Source: an uncultured bacterium (GTDB lineage Bacteria > Bacillota > Clostridia > Lachnospirales > Lachnospiraceae). From it: DNA of 64,000 bases. A program made the position numbers and the translations under genes. The first letter of the stretch is position 1. Each line of letters begins with the position of its first letter. The notes beneath the pieces are model-generated. The model saw only the letters and a program-made list of their open reading frames with translations, was not told the origin of the DNA and made no database searches. Positions 47,548 through 62,453 of this stretch are shown piece by piece. The stretch is from positions 1-64,000 of the forward strand of contig CAMXIF010000005.1 in assembly GCA_947243845.1 (NCBI GenBank), written 5' to 3'.

Positions 47548-48882
47548 TTGAGCGATTTGATATATATGACCAAACAACAGGAAAAAAAATACAGAGGCTT
47601 TTTATATATTTTACTCATTGCCGGGGTGGCGGCACTGATCGTGACAATCTATTTTACCTATTGGGATAAGATTCCTTCCACCATCAAGATTCGAGCCGGC
47701 GTGGAACAGGAACTGGACTTTAGGGTTCCCGTATCCGGGGAGATTTACCGGATTCCAGAGGAGGCGGCGCAGGTATCTTCCGTGACAGAACTGGCGGATT
47801 CCGAGGTCGTGAAAGCGGAGGATGCGGCAAGAAGTATCCACGTGGATTTTGCACATACGGTCAAAGTCAGGGCAAATGCGATTGATACTTACCAGATGGA
47901 TCTGAAATTGTTCGGTGTTCTTCCTTATAAAAATGTGGATATCCAGGTAATCCAGGATAAAATGCTGATTCCTTCCGGCATCCCTATCGGTATTTATGTC
48001 AAGACCAACGGGGTTCTGGTGGTAGGTGTCGGAGAATTTGAGAACAGCAGCGGGGAAACGGTGTCGCCCGCCAAATATGCGCTGCAAAAGGGAGATTACA
48101 TTCTGGAAATTGACGGGGAAACGGTGGAAAACAAGAAGCAGCTGATCAGGCTGGTGGAGGAGTCTGAAGGAAAAGATATGGTGTTGACCATCAAGAGAAA
48201 TGATGAAATAACAGATGTTATGATAGAACCCGACATCAATAAGAGCAGCGAGTGGAAACTTGGTATATGGATACGGGACAATGCCCAGGGTATCGGAACC
48301 ATGACGTATGAGGGGACAGATCATACCTTCGGGGCACTGGGACACGGGATTAATGATGTGGATACTTCCATCCTGATGAATCTGGAGGAAGGTATGCTGT
48401 ATAAGACAGAGATTGTGGGTATCACCAGGGGAGCCAACGGCGCGCCGGGAGAATTGACGGGTTATATCGAATACGACAGCGATAACGTGATCGGGGAGAT
48501 TACCGAGAATACGGCGGAAGGCATCTTTGGAATCTGCGATGAGAGCCGTATGGAGAAATCTGGTTATGAGCCCATCCCCATTGCCTTAAAACAGGAGATT
48601 GAACTGGGACCAGCACAGATCATCTGTTCCGTTTCCGGGGAACCGGAGTTTTATGATGTGGAAATTGTGGAAGTCAATCTGGAACACGAAAACGTAAACC
48701 GGGGAATCGTCATCCGGGTGGCGGACGAGAAACTCCTGACGCTCACTGGTGGTATTATCCAAGGCATGAGCGGCAGTCCCATCATCCAGAACGGTAAACT
48801 GGTGGGAGCGGTGACCCACGTGCTGGTGAATGATTCCACTAAGGGGTATGGGATTTTTATTGAGGAGATGTTGACCCACTGA
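47548..48882 (+). CDS. spoIVB: SpoIVB sporulation signalling protease (S55)
   Basis: A 444-residue protease made in the forespore that triggers sigma-K (or equivalent) activation in the mother cell. A membrane helix (FLYILLIAGVAALIVTIYF) is followed by a PDZ domain (about 140-225) and the S55 peptidase domain with the nucleophile in GMSGSPIIQNGKLVGAVTH and the catalytic His in FGALGHGIND. The start is uncertain: TTG 47548 (behind GAGGAATGG) is chosen, ATG 47566 is the alternative, and the track's GTG lies inside the recN terminator. The full-length spo0A that usually follows in Clostridia is not here. Confidence 0.92.
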   Translation: MSDLIYMTKQQEKKYRGFLYILLIAGVAALIVTIYFTYWDKIPSTIKIRAGVEQELDFRVPVSGEIYRIPEEAAQVSSVTELADSEVVKAEDAARSIHVDFAHTVKVRANAIDTYQMDLKLFGVLPYKNVDIQVIQDKMLIPSGIPIGIYVKTNGVLVVGVGEFENSSGETVSPAKYALQKGDYILEIDGETVENKKQLIRLVEESEGKDMVLTIKRNDEITDVMIEPDINKSSEWKLGIWIRDNAQGIGTMTYEGTDHTFGALGHGINDVDTSILMNLEEGMLYKTEIVGITRGANGAPGELTGYIEYDSDNVIGEITENTAEGIFGICDESRMEKSGYEPIPIALKQEIELGPAQIICSVSGEPEFYDVEIVEVNLEHENVNRGIVIRVADEKLLTLTGGIIQGMSGSPIIQNGKLVGAVTHVLVNDSTKGYGIFIEEMLTH

Positions 48883-52956: not shown

Positions 52957-53475
52957 ATGGAGACTTTAAATGTGACAGCAACGCGGGATCAGGAGCAGTT
53001 TTACAGGATCATAAATAATCTGATAAGTACGAATAAGGAGTTTCAGATCATGATCACGGTTCCTTCCGGTGAGATGAATCAGGAGGCGCCGGCGGTCATG
53101 CCGACAGTGACAGAGACCGTGGCCAGGGATCTGGAGAAGGACGTGACAGATATGATTCATGAAATTGGTGTCCCGGCGCATATCAAGGGATATCAGTATC
53201 TGCGGGAAGCCATCATGATGTCGGTAACGGATGTGGAGATGCTCGGCTCGATCACCAAGATTCTCTATCCTACCATTGCGAAGAAGTATCAGACCACACC
53301 CAGCCGGGTGGAACGTGCCATAAGGCATGCCATAGAGGTGGCCTGGTCCAGAGGCAGGATGGAAACGCTTGACGCGCTATTTGGCTACACGATTAATACA
53401 GGCAAGGGAAAGCCGACAAACTCAGAGTTTATTGCTCTAATTGCAGATAAAATCAGATTACAATATCGCCGTTAA
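52957..53475 (+). CDS. Spo0A C-terminal-domain protein without receiver
   Basis: A 172-residue protein whose last 110 residues are a highly conserved Spo0A DNA-binding domain: [51 protein letters not shown] in outline, and [19 protein letters not shown]. Helices that read the 0A box (TGTCGAA type) look intact. The phosphoacceptor receiver domain is absent; the first 60 residues are an unrelated short N-terminus ([19 protein letters not shown]). ATG 52957 follows CGGAGG, and no receiver-like frame lies upstream. It could bind 0A boxes constitutively, activating or competing with true Spo0A, which must be elsewhere. It is 105 bp ahead of glgA. Confidence 0.88.
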
Positions 53476-55026: not shown

Positions 55027-55048
55027 AAGAACAAAAAGATATTTGCGA

Positions 55049-55086
55049 AACGGAAATAATCCATGCAGATGGATTGTTTCCGTTTT
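55049..55086 (+). terminator. Terminator of glgA
   Basis: A 16-bp stem AACGGAAATAATCCAT/ATGGATTGTTTCCGTT with one wobble pair and loop GCAG, then TTTT. Confidence 0.85.
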
Positions 55087-55173
55087 GTGCGCATAGTTTG
55101 ACTTTTCGTTCCCGGAAGGGTATAATAAAACATACTTTCTGTCCTGGAAGGTTCTGGTAAAGAAGATGAAAAG

Positions 55174-57555
55174 ATGAATCGTGAAACGAAAATATTTTGG
55201 CGAAAAAACATACTTTTTCTGTTTGTAGTACTTTTTGCACTGACGGCTCTTATTACGATAGGTTTCTATACTTACATCAGAGTCAGTATAGGCGTAAACA
55301 GAGGAAGCATTGGGTACTGTATGCAGGATGAGAAGCTGGTGGTTTCATGGCAGACGGTATCTGATAAAAATAGATACCGCTTTTCACGATATGATGAAGG
55401 AACCGGAGAATACATCTTTTGCGGTGAATATGCCGATGGCAGGGCAGAGTTGACTGAGATAACACCGTACGAAGAACTGACATTAAAGATGCAGGGGGTA
55501 CGGGCAATTCAGGTATGCGGGTATGACCGGGAAATACTGGGGAAGCCGCGCATACTGACGGTAGTGCCGCAGAGACTGGACTGTCCGGTACTGACTAAAA
55601 CGGCGGATTTGGATAAAAAGTGTGTAAAGATCACATGGGATACAAAGCCGGGTGACAGGTACGAAATCTATCGCACCAACGAAGCAGGAATCTCAAAACT
55701 GTATACGGAGAGTGAAGCGGGCGAGATTGTATTCGACATGGAGGAACATGCGGAATTAGCTGGGAGAGAACAGGAAATAGGCGTTGCGGTTCGCACGGTA
55801 CGCCGTATGGATGATTACATGCTCTACAGCGTTATCTCTGATCCGATTGCGGTCAGCCGTGTGGATTTGATGGATGACGAGGTGCGCCTGACATATGAAG
55901 AAAATGGAGAACTGTGTTATATACTGAACTGGCAGGAAAGTAAGAGTGACCGGTATGAGTTGCAGGAATGGTCTTTTGAGACTGAGGAATGGATCAGCAG
56001 ACAGGTATATCAATGGTCAGATTCCTTGTCTTATGATACGGGACGGCTGCCTTCCGGCACGAAGGTGCGATTTCGTATCGTCACGGATAACGATGCCGGA
56101 TGGCGTGATGGGGAAGGGGTTACAGATGCGCTTTCTGAAGTGACGTTTCGAACCCGGACTTCGCCTGTCTACTGTACGGTCTGGCCGTTGACAGCGCTGG
56201 ATATTTCTGAGGATTCTGCCGGGGAGAATGTGACAGGGCAGGTGCCTGCCGGAACAACTCTATGTGTTCTGGAGGAGGCAGAAGGGCGCTTTCTGGTACG
56301 GTATGGAGAGCAGTACGGTTATATTGATTCCCAATATTGTCTGATCGATCTTGCGGAATATCTGGGAAATCTTTGTCAATATCATATTACGAACAGCTAT
56401 TCCTCTATTTTTCGGGTACATGGGTATGATATTCCTGAAGTGACGGATGGCGTGATAGCAGGATATGAAAATATTCATATGGGAGATGGCAGGATGCTGG
56501 TTCCCTATTTATATCCTTGTGCGCAGAGGCTGTATCAGGCAGCGCTTTGTGCGGAAGAGGATGGTTATATCCTGTGTATTTATGACGCCTTCCGTCCGAA
56601 CGAGGCGACCAGGTATCTTTATGATGCCACGGAAGTCATATTGGATCAGCCGGTTCCGGATACAGAGGGCGGGGAAGACGTAGAGGATGAAGAAGCGGTT
56701 GAGGATGCTGAGGCCGCAACGGAAGAAGCTGACAAAGCAGATATTGGAACGGAAGAAACGATAGAAGATGAAGAGGCCGCAGGGGACAAAGAGACAGAGG
56801 AGAAGGTGAAGCTGTTACTGGAGGAACTTGCGCCTGAATCGATAGAGAGTATAAGAGGATTGTCTGAAGAGGGATTGACGATATTTTATGTTTTCCCGCA
56901 GGAATCCTTGGCGTTCATAGGCGGTGCAATGCCTGAGAATCCGGATGAGGATGCTGCCGTGGACAGCGCGTCTGTGGTATCACTTCTGACACCGGAGGAT
57001 CTGCTTTTGCTGCAGGGGATGGCCGAAGGGGACATTCCGGTTCTAAAGGAGATGCCGTGGGAGGAAGTGTTGGTACTGAAACGGTATCTGGATCATACCA
57101 TGACCTATCGTGGGGTGATGACGGACAACAGGTTCCGGCTGGGCAGTTTTCTGGCACAGGCGGTATCTACTCATAACAGAGGGATTGCTTTGGATCTGAC
57201 TCTGGTCAGGGCAGCATCGGGGCAGGAACTTCAGATGCAGTCAGAGATGCATGATCTAAGCTGGTATTCCATCCCGGCACAAAACAATGAGAATGCCGAT
57301 CTTCTGGCATACTATATGGAAGGGGCAGGATATCATGGCATCTCATCGGAATGGTGGCATTTTCAGGATGATGAGACCAGGAATCGACTGCAGTTGGGCT
57401 ATATGGAGAAAGGAGTTTCTCCGGAAGGCTGGAAAAAGGATGCGCAGGGCTGGAGATATCGCCTGGCAGATGGCAGTTACTATTATACCGTTACGGTTAT
57501 GATAGATAATAAAGAATGTACTTTCAATGAGGGGGGCTATCTGGTTGAAAAGTAG
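55174..57555 (+). CDS. Membrane-anchored M15 (VanX/VanY-like) peptidase with acidic insertion
   Basis: A 793-residue surface protein. A membrane helix at about 11-34 is followed by FN3/Ig-like segments (about 40-335), an SH3-like segment (about 340-400) and an M15 metallopeptidase: DAFRP near residue 470, the zinc motif STHNRGIALD near 666 and SEWWHF near 725, as in D-Ala-D-Ala dipeptidases. Between DAFRP and the zinc motif lies an acidic insert of roughly 150 residues (about 493-643; EDVEDEEAVEDAEAATEEAD), absent from ordinary VanX-type enzymes. The C-terminus (GWKKDAQGWRYRLADGSYYY) is one wall-binding-like repeat. It should trim peptidoglycan peptides outside the cell. First gene of the surface locus. 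Confidence 0.8.
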   Translation: MNRETKIFWRKNILFLFVVLFALTALITIGFYTYIRVSIGVNRGSIGYCMQDEKLVVSWQTVSDKNRYRFSRYDEGTGEYIFCGEYADGRAELTEITPYEELTLKMQGVRAIQVCGYDREILGKPRILTVVPQRLDCPVLTKTADLDKKCVKITWDTKPGDRYEIYRTNEAGISKLYTESEAGEIVFDMEEHAELAGREQEIGVAVRTVRRMDDYMLYSVISDPIAVSRVDLMDDEVRLTYEENGELCYILNWQESKSDRYELQEWSFETEEWISRQVYQWSDSLSYDTGRLPSGTKVRFRIVTDNDAGWRDGEGVTDALSEVTFRTRTSPVYCTVWPLTALDISEDSAGENVTGQVPAGTTLCVLEEAEGRFLVRYGEQYGYIDSQYCLIDLAEYLGNLCQYHITNSYSSIFRVHGYDIPEVTDGVIAGYENIHMGDGRMLVPYLYPCAQRLYQAALCAEEDGYILCIYDAFRPNEATRYLYDATEVILDQPVPDTEGGEDVEDEEAVEDAEAATEEADKADIGTEETIEDEEAAGDKETEEKVKLLLEELAPESIESIRGLSEEGLTIFYVFPQESLAFIGGAMPENPDEDAAVDSASVVSLLTPEDLLLLQGMAEGDIPVLKEMPWEEVLVLKRYLDHTMTYRGVMTDNRFRLGSFLAQAVSTHNRGIALDLTLVRAASGQELQMQSEMHDLSWYSIPAQNNENADLLAYYMEGAGYHGISSEWWHFQDDETRNRLQLGYMEKGVSPEGWKKDAQGWRYRLADGSYYYTVTVMIDNKECTFNEGGYLVEK

Positions 57556-57582
57556 ATTCTGAAAAACAAAGGAGAAAACGAC

Positions 57583-58443
57583 ATGAAGAAGAATCGATTT
57601 TTAACAGCAATTTTATGCATGGGCCTGGTTTTTGGTACCGTGGCCATGCCTGTACAGGCGGCGCCCAAAGGCGGATTTGTGGCAACAGAAGAAGGCACCA
57701 AATGGCAGAACAGTGATGGGAGTTTGGCAATTAATACCTGGGTTGAAGCGAACGGGCACAAGTACCATACAGATGAGAACGGGGTGCTTCAGACAGGACT
57801 GATCAAGATAGATGAGCAGATCTTTTATTTCTATAATACAGGGGAAGCAGCCACTGGCTGGATCACATTGGGAGCGGACTGCTATTATTTCGATGCTAAT
57901 GGTGTAATGGCACAGAATACAGTCGTAAACGGCTGTACGGTGGGCGCCAATGGAAAGCTGCAGAAGGCGCTGGACGAAGAAGGGAAGGCTAAACAGACTG
58001 ACTTGGTGGCAGGCATTCTGGCATCGACTGTGACACCGGGTATGACAGAAGAAGAAAAACTGCTTGCATGTTATAACTACGTGATCAATGCCAGCGGTTA
58101 TAAGAGAACCTACGAGACACCGACAGCAGACTGGACTGGTCAGTTTGCCTGGGAAATTCTGTCCTCAGGGGAGGGCAACTGTTTCCGTTATGCGGCAGCT
58201 TATGCCAGCCTTGCCAAAGGACTGGGGTATGATGCGAGGGTAGCGACAGGATATATCGGCAACAGAAAAGGCGGCCTTTCTCCGCATGGCTGGACAGAGG
58301 TACGGATTGGCGATACCTGGTATATTTTTGATACGGAAATGCATGATGCCAAAAATGGCAAAAAGAATTATTTCTTTAAGACATATGAGACATATCCAAG
58401 CAAGCCGCTCAAAAAAGAGGCTGACTGGCCGGTATATTTTTAA
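57583..58443 (+). CDS. Secreted transglutaminase-like protein with wall-binding repeats
   Basis: A 286-residue exported protein: signal peptide ending near VQAAP, then choline-binding-type (CW) repeats at about 40-120 (GWITLGADCYYFDANGVM is one unit), then a transglutaminase-like domain with Cys in GEGNCFRYAA, His in SPHGWTEV and Asp in FDTEM. Likely a wall-attached cysteine peptidase or crosslinking enzyme. ATG follows AAAGGAGAA. It starts 27 bp after the M15 gene and shares the tail-repeat theme with it. Confidence 0.85.
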   Translation: MKKNRFLTAILCMGLVFGTVAMPVQAAPKGGFVATEEGTKWQNSDGSLAINTWVEANGHKYHTDENGVLQTGLIKIDEQIFYFYNTGEAATGWITLGADCYYFDANGVMAQNTVVNGCTVGANGKLQKALDEEGKAKQTDLVAGILASTVTPGMTEEEKLLACYNYVINASGYKRTYETPTADWTGQFAWEILSSGEGNCFRYAAAYASLAKGLGYDARVATGYIGNRKGGLSPHGWTEVRIGDTWYIFDTEMHDAKNGKKNYFFKTYETYPSKPLKKEADWPVYF

Positions 58444-58464
58444 GTGACAGGGAGAAGAGGATAG

Positions 58465-59859
58465 ATGGCGTTTAGTTCAATTCCCTTTTTGTGTGCTTTT
58501 TTTCCGGTGGTCATTATCTTATATTATCTGACACCTTCTGCTAAGCTGAAGAACTGCCTTCTGATTATGGTAAGCCTGCTATTTTATGCTTATGGAGAAG
58601 GCATATATGTTTTACTGATGCTGGCCTGTGTCTGCGTTAATTATCTGGCAGCCAGACTGATAGAACACAGTAATAAAGGGAAAAAGATACTGCTTCTTTT
58701 AGCAATTGTATTGAATCTGGGCGTACTTGGTATGTATAAGTACGCTGGCATGATTATAATGACAGTAAATCGGATTGCCGGTTCGGAGATTTCCGTACCG
58801 GCGTTCCATCTGCCGATAGGAATTTCGTTCTTTATATTCCAGGCGCTTTCTTATGTGGTGGATGTATACCGAAACAGGGTCAAAGCGGATAAAAGCCTGA
58901 TCAGGATTTTGCTTTATATTTCCTTTTTTCCACAGCTGATTGCCGGACCGATCATCAAATATCATGATATTTCGGGACAGCTTGACAGAAGGAAAGTATC
59001 TTTATCGCAGAGCTGTCAGGGACTCAGACGGTTCATCATCGGGTTATCTAAGAAAGTATTGATAGCCAATACGATGGGATTGACGGCAGATTATGTGTTT
59101 TCCCGGCCATATCATGAACTGGGGATGCTTTTGGCATGGGTTGGCGCAATAGCATATGTATTCCAGATTTATTTTGATTTCAGCGGTTATAGCGATATGG
59201 CCATAGGCATGGGTAAAATGTTCGGATTTCATTTTATGGAAAATTTCCGGTATCCTTATGCTGCCGGCAGTATCCAGGACTTCTGGAGAAGGTGGCATAT
59301 CTCACTTACCAGCTGGTTTCGGGAATATCTCTACATTCCTCTGGGAGGGAATAGAAAAGGGAAGACAAGAACCTGGCTCAACAGGCTGGTGGTATTTTTC
59401 TTTACGGGATTGTGGCATGGTGCCAGCTGGACCTTTGTGTTTTGGGGATTGTTTCACGGCATGTTTCTGACGCTGGAGACCGTTTTTCCAAAATTGACCA
59501 AAAAGATGGGCGTATTCCGCCATCTTTATGTGTTGGTAGTAGTCTGTACAGGTTTTGTTATCTTCCGGGCAGACACGATAGAACAGGCCTGGATGATGCT
59601 TGAAGTCATGTTCACGAAGACCGCATGGACGCCAGCGATAGAAGCAGCCGCTGCGAGCGTATGCAATCTGCTGTTTCTGGTGACACTGCCAGTGGCGGCT
59701 GTCTGTTCCATGCCTGTATTGGAACGGATCAAAAATACGCACCGGATGCAACCGATATGGGAGGGGGTATCCTATATGATCTCAATTCCGCTTCTGGCGG
59801 CTTGTATGGTGAGTCTTGCAGGCGGAACATATAATCCGTTTATCTATTTCAGATTTTGA
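58465..59859 (+). CDS. MBOAT O-acyltransferase (AlgI/DltB-like)
   Basis: A 464-residue polytopic membrane protein of the MBOAT family. Landmarks: FSSIPFLCAFFPVVIILYYL at the start, FFPQLIAGPII, YSDMAIGMGKMFGF, FWRRWHISLTSWFREYLYIPLGGN in outline, and the catalytic His in GLWHGASWTFVFWG. It moves acyl (usually acetyl) groups across the membrane onto a surface polymer. The DHHW protein downstream is the usual partner. 21 bp after the transglutaminase gene. Confidence 0.93.
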   Translation: MAFSSIPFLCAFFPVVIILYYLTPSAKLKNCLLIMVSLLFYAYGEGIYVLLMLACVCVNYLAARLIEHSNKGKKILLLLAIVLNLGVLGMYKYAGMIIMTVNRIAGSEISVPAFHLPIGISFFIFQALSYVVDVYRNRVKADKSLIRILLYISFFPQLIAGPIIKYHDISGQLDRRKVSLSQSCQGLRRFIIGLSKKVLIANTMGLTADYVFSRPYHELGMLLAWVGAIAYVFQIYFDFSGYSDMAIGMGKMFGFHFMENFRYPYAAGSIQDFWRRWHISLTSWFREYLYIPLGGNRKGKTRTWLNRLVVFFFTGLWHGASWTFVFWGLFHGMFLTLETVFPKLTKKMGVFRHLYVLVVVCTGFVIFRADTIEQAWMMLEVMFTKTAWTPAIEAAAASVCNLLFLVTLPVAAVCSMPVLERIKNTHRMQPIWEGVSYMISIPLLAACMVSLAGGTYNPFIYFRF

Positions 59860-59919
59860 CGGATGGTGATATGCGGATAAAGCAGGGCAGAAAATGGTTT
59901 ATACAGGCGGGTGTGAAGC

Positions 59920-62415
59920 GTGAAAAAAAGGAGCATAAAGGTTAAAAAGAAAATAGATTTTAACCCAAAGAAAATGAGCCGAAATAGAAAAATGAATAAG
60001 AAGGTTAACAGGATTATAACCGTTAACAAACATAAAAGGATTGCCAGGAATAAGAAGGATAAGAAATTATATGTATGGTTCTTGATGGGGGTACTTTGCC
60101 TGTTGGGAATTGGCGCTGTGCTTCTGACTTTTCTTCGTTCTAAACAGAAAGACGAACCGGTTGAGGACATTGATAACTTACCCTTGCCGGAGATTAAGAC
60201 CCAGACTGACGGGCAGGAGAAAGAAGTTCGGAGACTGGCAGAAGAGGAAAAGCAAGAGACAGTACAGGAGATACAGGAGAGAAAGAAGAAAAGATCAACA
60301 GGGGCAGCGGGAAGTGTCCTGTATCTTCTGTTGGTTCTGGGGATCTGCATTGTGCCGCTGCTGCTGTTTTGGCTAAGACCAGTGGAAACAACAGCGGAGA
60401 ACCGCACAATGGCAGTACTGCCTGAGATTTGGACAGCGGAAGGATTTAACTGGAATGTGTTGTCGGAAGCAGGCGCCTATTTTACAGACCACTTTTTCCT
60501 TCGGCAGGAAATGGTGTCGATCAATGCGGGGATCCGGTCGGAAGTTTTTGGCATATCCCCGGTGGAAGATGTGATTGTGGGGGAGAACGGGTGGCTGTAT
60601 TATGCGGCGACTCTGGATGATTATCAGCATAAAAACAGCATTTCGGAACGTATGTTATTTAATGCAGCGCATAACACGGCGTTGATGCAGGAGTATACAG
60701 AGGGATTGGGGAAAACGTTTGTTTTTACTATCGCTCCCAATAAAAATTCTCTTTATGACGAGAATATGCCAAAGAGGCTGCGGTATCAGGTGGCTGAGAA
60801 GAGCGATGCCCAGAGACTCTTGCCGTGGCTTGTCAGGGAGAATGTTAATTATGTAGATCTGTTTGCTCTATTTGAGGAGCAGGAGGAAACCTTATATTAT
60901 GCGAGGGATTCCCACTGGAATGAAAAGGGTGCGGTTATGGTCTATCATGCCCTTTTAGATGTCTGTGGAAAACAGCATGAGACTTTCGAAGGGGCCGAAC
61001 CGATACAAAACAAGGATTATTTCGGTGATCTGGGTGTGATGTTGTTTCCGGTGGGCGGAAGTCCGGAGGTACGCCTGCAATATCCGGTGGAGGATACCTG
61101 GTATTATGTGGAGGGTGAAAAGGCGGAAGATCAGTTTGTCCGCACGGCAAATGATAAGGGAGAAGGAAATCTCTTGATGTATCGGGATTCCTTTGGCAAT
61201 TCCCTGCTTCCTTATATGGCACAGACATTTTCACAGACGGTCTTTTCCAGACAGATGCCTTATGCCATGAGCGATCTTGTGACTTATGAGCCGGATATTC
61301 TGATTGTAGAAAAAGTAGAGAGACAGCTTCCTACCCTGGGTAAAGTGCCGCCTGTGATGGGCGCTCCAATCCGGGAAACAGAGAAAGCATTTGTTATGGC
61401 CAAGAGCACAGCAGCGACAGTGAACGTATCCAAAGAGGGCAGTTATTGGAAACTGGAAGGATTGGCGGATCCGGCCTACATGGATACGGACAGCCGTATT
61501 TATGTGGAGGTGGACGATGGCGGCGGTGCAAAACTGTACGAGGCTTTTTGTGTCAGCAGTGCAGATACAAAGGACGGCAGTACGAATGATTATGGATATA
61601 TTCTGTATGTTGCAGAAACACAAATAAGTGAAGATGTCTCTCAGATTCGGATTCGGGTGATAACGGAACAGGAAGAGGCAATGCAGGTTCTGCGGGAAAG
61701 TAAATTGTACGTCATACAGAATGGTACGGTTGATGGCTCGGTTAAGCTGGATCAGGAGGCCGCAGAGGCAGACAAAGACCAAGAGGAAGCTGTTAAAGAA
61801 AACAGTGAGGGAACCGATAAGGAAATTGACAGAGAAACCGGGACAGAAGGTGCCGCCGGAGCGTCTAAGACAGAAGCGGCAGCAGAGGCCGCAGGAGAAA
61901 CAACAGAAAAACAAGCGGTAAACGCCCAGAAAGCGGAAGAAATACAGACAGAGGCGGGAACCCAGGCGACACAAGGTCAGACGACAGGTACACAGCCGGT
62001 GCAAAGCAAGATAACGACAAAAGCACAGGCGACAGAGGCCCCAAAGGTGTCACAGGCTCAGCCAGAGTCACAAGCCCAGAAAGAGGCAGGGATCCAGCCA
62101 GAGTCACAAGTACAACAAGAGGCAGAACTCCAGCCAGGGTCACAAGTCCAGCAAGGGGCAGAGTTCCAGCCAGAGTCACAAGTCCAACAAGGGGCAGGGA
62201 TCCAGCCAGAGCCACAAGCTCAACGAGGGGCAGAGCTTCAACCAGAGCCACAAGTCCAGCAAGAGGCAGAAACCCAGGCCCAGACGGCAGTCCAACAGCA
62301 GACACAACAGACCGTTACCGAGGTGAGCCGTATTTATATGGAAGACTGTGGATCCGACAGCGGATATTGGGTGATAACTTATTCGGATGGTCATGTGGAA
62401 TATGTGGATGACTGA
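59920..62415 (+). CDS. DHHW/AlgJ-like acetylation partner with Gln-rich repeat tail
   Basis: An 831-residue protein. A very basic start (about 1-50) precedes one transmembrane helix (about 47-67), a charged linker, a second helix (about 130-150), then the DHHW/AlgX-AlgJ SGNH-like domain: FTDHFFLRQEMVSIN, the Asp/His motif YARDSHWNEKGA and the Ser motif MYRDSFGNSLLPY. Family members accept acyl groups from the MBOAT partner and put them on a polysaccharide. The last 250 residues are Ala/Glu/Gln/Thr-rich with six 12-residue repeats, ending in a short conserved tail (SDSGYWVITYSDGHVEYV). Start is GTG 59920 with a weak SD; ATG 59974 is possible. Confidence 0.85.
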   Translation: MKKRSIKVKKKIDFNPKKMSRNRKMNKKVNRIITVNKHKRIARNKKDKKLYVWFLMGVLCLLGIGAVLLTFLRSKQKDEPVEDIDNLPLPEIKTQTDGQEKEVRRLAEEEKQETVQEIQERKKKRSTGAAGSVLYLLLVLGICIVPLLLFWLRPVETTAENRTMAVLPEIWTAEGFNWNVLSEAGAYFTDHFFLRQEMVSINAGIRSEVFGISPVEDVIVGENGWLYYAATLDDYQHKNSISERMLFNAAHNTALMQEYTEGLGKTFVFTIAPNKNSLYDENMPKRLRYQVAEKSDAQRLLPWLVRENVNYVDLFALFEEQEETLYYARDSHWNEKGAVMVYHALLDVCGKQHETFEGAEPIQNKDYFGDLGVMLFPVGGSPEVRLQYPVEDTWYYVEGEKAEDQFVRTANDKGEGNLLMYRDSFGNSLLPYMAQTFSQTVFSRQMPYAMSDLVTYEPDILIVEKVERQLPTLGKVPPVMGAPIRETEKAFVMAKSTAATVNVSKEGSYWKLEGLADPAYMDTDSRIYVEVDDGGGAKLYEAFCVSSADTKDGSTNDYGYILYVAETQISEDVSQIRIRVITEQEEAMQVLRESKLYVIQNGTVDGSVKLDQEAAEADKDQEEAVKENSEGTDKEIDRETGTEGAAGASKTEAAAEAAGETTEKQAVNAQKAEEIQTEAGTQATQGQTTGTQPVQSKITTKAQATEAPKVSQAQPESQAQKEAGIQPESQVQQEAELQPGSQVQQGAEFQPESQVQQGAGIQPEPQAQRGAELQPEPQVQQEAETQAQTAVQQQTQQTVTEVSRIYMEDCGSDSGYWVITYSDGHVEYVDD
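62059..62274 (+). repeat. Six 36-bp tandem repeats in the DHHW gene
   Basis: Units encode variants of QPESQVQQGAGI. Codon-level similarity among units is high, so copy number may vary between strains. Confidence 0.9.
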
Positions 62416-62453
62416 TTAATAGATTAGAAAAAGGAAAGGAGCGGGGAGAACTG

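Follow-up and report, generated by a model that had tools for sequence, protein, structure and literature searches.

The gene at 55174-57555 of the 64,000-nucleotide stretch of Lachnospiraceae DNA analyzed here (the window) most probably encodes a membrane-anchored M15D zinc peptidase of the cell wall that belongs to a surface-polymer acylation cassette, and whose insertion-tolerant loop between the two catalytic lobes has gained a docking or lid module, a reading to which we assign a probability of about 0.6. What the computation gives directly is a set of intact catalytic residues, a two-part insert, a link of hypervariable length, a selected module restricted to one clade, and the cassette itself. 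The peptidase gene with its protein features and the other three cassette genes described below lie on the forward strand.

A VanX-type peptidase split by an insert

The open reading frame encodes 793 amino acids, modeled by AlphaFold2 with the family alignment (mean pLDDT 89.1), where the model is read as confidence (pLDDT) and secondary structure. The protein opens with an N-terminal membrane-anchor helix (55210-55278), with a hydrophobic core at residues ~13-35 and a predicted helix at 6-37. Three fibronectin type III-like (Fn3) domains follow (55309-56154; residues 46-327), matching titin and receptor Fn3 domains in a PDB profile comparison and Fn3 tandems in Foldseek (E = 2.8e-09), and then an SH3-like domain (56170-56349; residues 333-392), with a weak SH3_3 match at residues 350-388 (E = 0.008) and strands at pLDDT 96-98. 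The first part of the M15 domain, delimited by the family alignment, runs through the DAFRP helix (56350-56652; residues 393-493), while the C-terminus is a wall-binding-like tail (57412-57552; residues 747-793) that matches the choline-binding repeats of LytA and Cpl-1 in profile comparison against the PDB (E = 2.8e-07 to 9e-05). From the anchor helix, the positive N-terminal charge and the wall-binding-like parts, we infer that the catalytic domain is probably extracellular and wall-facing. The literature search found no description of M15 peptidases with Fn3 or SH3 domains.

In a comparison with the PDB, residues 446-480 align with VanX (1r44) residues 43-77, and residues 662-731 with its residues 111-186. 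Here, the substrate-side DAFRP motif (56584-56598; residues 471-475) aligns with DGYRP of VanX, placing R474 at R71, while the zinc-ligand motif STHNRGIALD (57166-57195; residues 665-674) places H667 and D674 at H116 and D123, and the EWWH motif (57349-57360; residues 726-729) places E726 at the catalytic E181 and H729 at the zinc ligand H184. These five residues, R474, H667, D674, E726, and H729, are invariant in the 72 aligned sequences, as is P475. The M15D signatures are all present: an SxHxxGxAxD motif with His and Asp zinc ligands, an ExxH motif with the catalytic Glu and third zinc ligand, and a substrate-side Arg in a D-x-[FY]-R-P motif. Pfam Peptidase_M15 (PF01427) matches at residues 663-733 with 53.1 bits against a cut-off of 27 (E = 4.7e-14), covering only the post-insert part of the domain because the insert splits it. 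The NCBIfam equivalog models for VanX and DdpX match below their cut-offs, and we therefore withhold both names, while the model for VanY-type M15B enzymes (PF02557) does not match this protein, its two matches in the genome being other genes. Judged by its sequence, the product is a VanX-type (M15D) zinc peptidase with putative D-Ala-D-Ala dipeptidase activity, in keeping with the first-pass annotation of the gene as an M15 peptidase.

That annotation had also described an acidic insertion of about 150 residues between the DAFRP and zinc motifs, where VanX/VanY enzymes have a short link. The extra material measures 148 amino acids (residues 494-641), and 194 residues separate DxFRP from SxHxxG, compared with 43 in VanX (R71 to S114 in 1r44). 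In the 77-member family alignment, essentially every row covers the flanks, while residues ~500-640 are occupied in 19-52% of rows. Relatives with links of fewer than 100 residues do exist (30 of 75). An assembly artifact is ruled out by the open frame and because two congeneric species, at 83% and 77% protein identity, carry the insert in separate assemblies, at 244 and 223 residues. The observation of an M15 peptidase split by an insert is thus confirmed.

A hypervariable link and a two-part insert

The search recovered 78 relatives in Clostridia, mostly from metagenome-assembled genomes, and the link could be measured in 75 sequences, the window protein included. Across these, the DxFRP-SxHxxG distance ranges from 51 to 298 residues, being at least 100 in 45, with the shortest links, of 51-56 residues, in nine. 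On a tree from a quick search, with SH-aLRT support only and the insert columns left out, there are at least six transitions from long to short links or the reverse. Such differences occur even within one assembly, where the sister sequences L008 and L017 have links of 210 and 53 residues, while in L024 a repeat-bearing M15 fragment and a complete short-link M15 (60 residues) flank one cassette. Many relatives, along with this cassette-adjacent paralog, lack the insert yet retain the full set of catalytic residues; the insert is therefore dispensable for the catalytic architecture. Net charge is negative in all 45 long links, which are richer than the rest in Asp and Glu (25% versus 16%) and in Pro (12% versus 4%). 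Tandem repeats within the links of L011 and L012 suggest that slippage may be one source of growth. The best explanation of these data is that the inter-lobe link of M15D enzymes is a surface loop open to insertions, to which acidic low-complexity sequence has been added, and from which it has been lost, on repeated occasions. As a separate observation, a copy on an Olsenella-labeled contig (Actinomycetota; L054) sits on a short branch to the Pelethomonas copy in L053, shares its link length of 163 residues, and may reflect a binning error or a recent transfer.

In the window protein, the insert has two distinct halves, as the first-pass annotation had proposed in describing a Glu/Asp-rich first part and a leucine-rich second part. 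The first is an acidic, disordered linker (56653-56784; residues 494-537), where 21 of 44 residues are Asp or Glu, residues 500-528 fall below pLDDT 50, and sister species differ by indels. The second is a helical module (56785-57096; residues 538-641), with helix blocks mostly at pLDDT 89-95 and a loop at residues 581-600 at 65-75. Structure prediction therefore gives a flexible linker followed by a folded module, and substitution rates agree. Compared with two sister species (three close species and short stretches in all), dN/dS is 0.35-0.55 over residues 494-545, with large indels, but 0.11-0.15 over residues 546-641, close to the 0.08-0.11 of the second part of the catalytic domain. The acidic half drifts, while the helical half is held by purifying selection. 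In other family members, the acidic half is swapped for unrelated acidic, often Pro-rich sequence.

The helical module is built from 11-residue units. Three tandem units, LAPESIESIRG, LSEEGLTIFYV, and FPQESLAFIGG (56827-56925; residues 552-584), coincide with predicted helices at 554-562, 565-573, and 576-583, and three more, LTPEDLLLLQG, MAEGDIPVLKE, and MPWEEVLVLKR (56986-57084; residues 605-637), with helices at 607-614, 620-625, and 629-641, such that each of the six units has one short helix in the AlphaFold2 model and the loop divides the two triplets. Hydrophobicity in this second half is significantly autocorrelated at lag 11 in the window protein (z = 3.3), as it is in L003, L004, L007, L011, L012, and L027 (z = 3.4-5.4), with weaker periodicity in L075, L005 (z = 1.6), and L006 (z = 1.3), and z of at most 1.7 in all insert-bearing members outside the module clade; the pooled z of 10.7 is inflated by shared ancestry. 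The ten complete module-bearing members form one Lachnospiraceae clade (SH-aLRT 98) and all keep the module, although this is a small sample of related sequences, two of which (L005 and L006) are weakly periodic. Modeled alone from these ten sequences, the module reaches a mean pLDDT of 69, a lower confidence than in the full model. A Pfam search with residues 538-641 gave no family over cut-off (best E = 0.025), Foldseek with the module against the PDB gave no match to a solved fold (best E = 3.5), and a scan of viral contigs gave no match. Across 392 genomes of the order, the module matched only the source genome and one other (a 917-residue frame, L027), and the literature search found no description of it. 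Foldseek with the whole model is uninformative on the insert, since the matches listed were all Fn3 tandems or multidomain chains of a similar kind.

The four-gene cassette

The peptidase gene heads a cassette of four genes (55027-62453), M15-transglutaminase-MBOAT-AlgX-like SGNH, between glgA and a gene for a Wzx/MurJ-type flippase. The second gene encodes a transglutaminase-like protein with choline-binding-type repeats (57583-58443; Pfam Transglut_core, E = 4.3e-17, and Choline_bind) and the third an MBOAT O-acyltransferase (58465-59859; PF03062, E = 9.9e-35), both conserved neighbors, while the fourth encodes an AlgX-like SGNH protein with a low-complexity E/Q-rich tail (59920-62415; Pfam ALGX, E = 9.3e-16). 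The adjacency of MBOAT and SGNH/AlgX-like genes is that of an MBOAT-SGNH acylation locus, and such pairs add acyl groups to envelope polymers, in Gram-positives also to secondary wall polysaccharides (PMC12148441). The gene order M15-transglutaminase-MBOAT-AlgX recurs in the repeat-bearing clade, while in Oscillospiraceae it is MBOAT-AlgX-transglutaminase-M15. No description of such a four-gene combination was found in the literature. The analysis delineates a gene set, recurring among gut Lachnospiraceae and Oscillospiraceae, that would bring together wall-peptide trimming and surface-polymer acylation.

Within the genus, the M15 gene is found in 3 of 77 genomes (one per species, several incomplete). 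The glgA-flippase interval of the window spans 7.4 kb and contains exactly the four cassette genes. In the four non-carriers checked as empty sites, the flippase gene starts within tens of bases of the glgA stop, across an uninterrupted junction. Gain of the cassette at this site, not loss, is the simpler reading. Inspection by eye of the cassette junctions (55027-62453) revealed no repeats and no integrase. A phage origin was rejected, as no phage record matched, as was a plasmid origin, for which the only match, at 27.8% over the SH3/M15 start, was from Enterococcus raffinosus.

Several observations accompany the cassette. The end of the AlgX-like gene contains a 36-bp tandem repeat of 6.1 copies (62059-62277), coding for the E/Q-rich tail, and the AlgX-like protein is 68-72% identical to the copies of two sister species, compared with 91-96% for the MBOAT protein. 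Genomes of the genus (L099-L106 and others) hold an unusually large set of 7-15 MBOAT O-acyltransferase matches each, which suggests extensive surface acylation in the genus. Elsewhere in the window, a 172-residue protein (52957-53475) lacks a receiver domain and consists of the DNA-binding domain that forms the C-terminus of Spo0A (PF08769, E = 8.5e-47), and spoIVB lies nearby (47566-48882). In the source genome and ten congeners, nearly all Spo0A_C matches fall in frames of 128-220 residues, and the sole frame long enough for a full Spo0A is a weaker match (G061:C5, 262 aa), suggesting that Spo0A in this genus may be receiver-less.

Proposed function, alternatives and related systems

The peptidase would most likely trim the D-amino-acid ends of wall peptides, a substrate suggested by its family and genomic context, and would do so near the site at which a surface polymer is acylated by the MBOAT and AlgX-like SGNH proteins, together with the transglutaminase. 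The inter-lobe link, after the DAFRP helix and before the zinc motif, would be a surface loop that tolerates insertion and that, in one Lachnospiraceae clade, also contains about six short helices in a folded array of 11-residue units. In the most likely arrangement, the helical module would serve next to the active-site cleft as a lid or docking domain, tethered flexibly by the acidic part.

The first-pass annotation had raised autoinhibition, and because the cleft of M15-type (LAS) peptidases is framed by two lobes, with the insert positioned between them, the module could cover the zinc cleft until wall tension, partner binding or cleavage of the acidic linker freed the enzyme. A lid is made plausible by the related LdcB, where a short loop obstructs the active site when it is empty and moves upon binding (PMC4087270). 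The module is also conserved and folded, and an acidic tether would permit its movement. The gating loop of LdcB sits after that enzyme's zinc motif, and so the insert occupies a different site. However, many members, as well as the neighboring paralog in L024, have identical catalytic residues and no insert, and most long-link members have a Pro/Glu-rich link with no module; we regard an autoinhibitory lid as unlikely.

The variability in link length (51-298 residues), with at least six switches, would fit the view that the insert in its entirety is low-complexity sequence that the enzyme tolerates, grown by slippage and serving no specific role, as would the tandem repeats in L011 and L012 and the expanded repetitive tail of the AlgX-like protein in the same species. 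Yet neutral growth leaves unexplained why the helical half is constrained almost like the catalytic half, is confidently folded in the full model and is kept in 10 of 10 clade members, and alone does not predict that every long link is net negative, and we regard it as improbable. The calcium-binding role suggested in the first-pass annotation draws on the high Asp and Glu content of residues 494-537, but is not supported: a search of the insert for EF-hand or RTX motifs (DxDxDG or GGxGxD) found none, and the acidic half is predicted to be disordered, with acidic residues that are not conserved between sister species, leaving this reading very improbable. In a bolder extension of the preferred reading, one that we consider doubtful, the 11-residue array would be an undescribed small alpha-repeat domain, grafted into the inter-lobe loop, that couples trimming to MBOAT-SGNH acylation by serving as a lid or docking arm, in a cassette moving between Clostridia.

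The insert marks one surface loop of VanX-type enzymes as a site that takes entire modules while the catalytic residues are retained, for which close relatives and neighboring paralogs without the insert provide natural controls. Compared with the D-Ala-D-Ala dipeptidases VanX and DdpX (MEROPS M15D, PF01427, 1r44), the zinc ligands, catalytic Glu and substrate-side Arg occur in the same order; however, VanX is a single domain of 202 residues, while the protein here adds a membrane anchor and Fn3, SH3-like and wall-binding-like parts. With the M15B enzymes LdcB, VanY, and VanXY it shares a probable cell-wall setting and a LAS-superfamily active site (PMC4087270), but its best family is PF01427, not the VanY family PF02557. 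Units of LTPEQ-type helical repeats, such as those of TAL effectors, start in the same way as those of the module (hydrophobic, then S/T/P, then E) and continue into one short helix, and L027 has a sub-threshold TAL_effector match (E = 0.1). In contrast, the module units are 11 residues long and match no family over cut-off and no fold, and we take the likeness as convergence. The cassette shares its pairing of an MBOAT with an AlgX-like SGNH protein with AlgIJX, PatA/PatB, PatA1B1, and CcsHI (PMC12148441), and differs from these known systems in that an M15 peptidase and a transglutaminase are linked with the pair.
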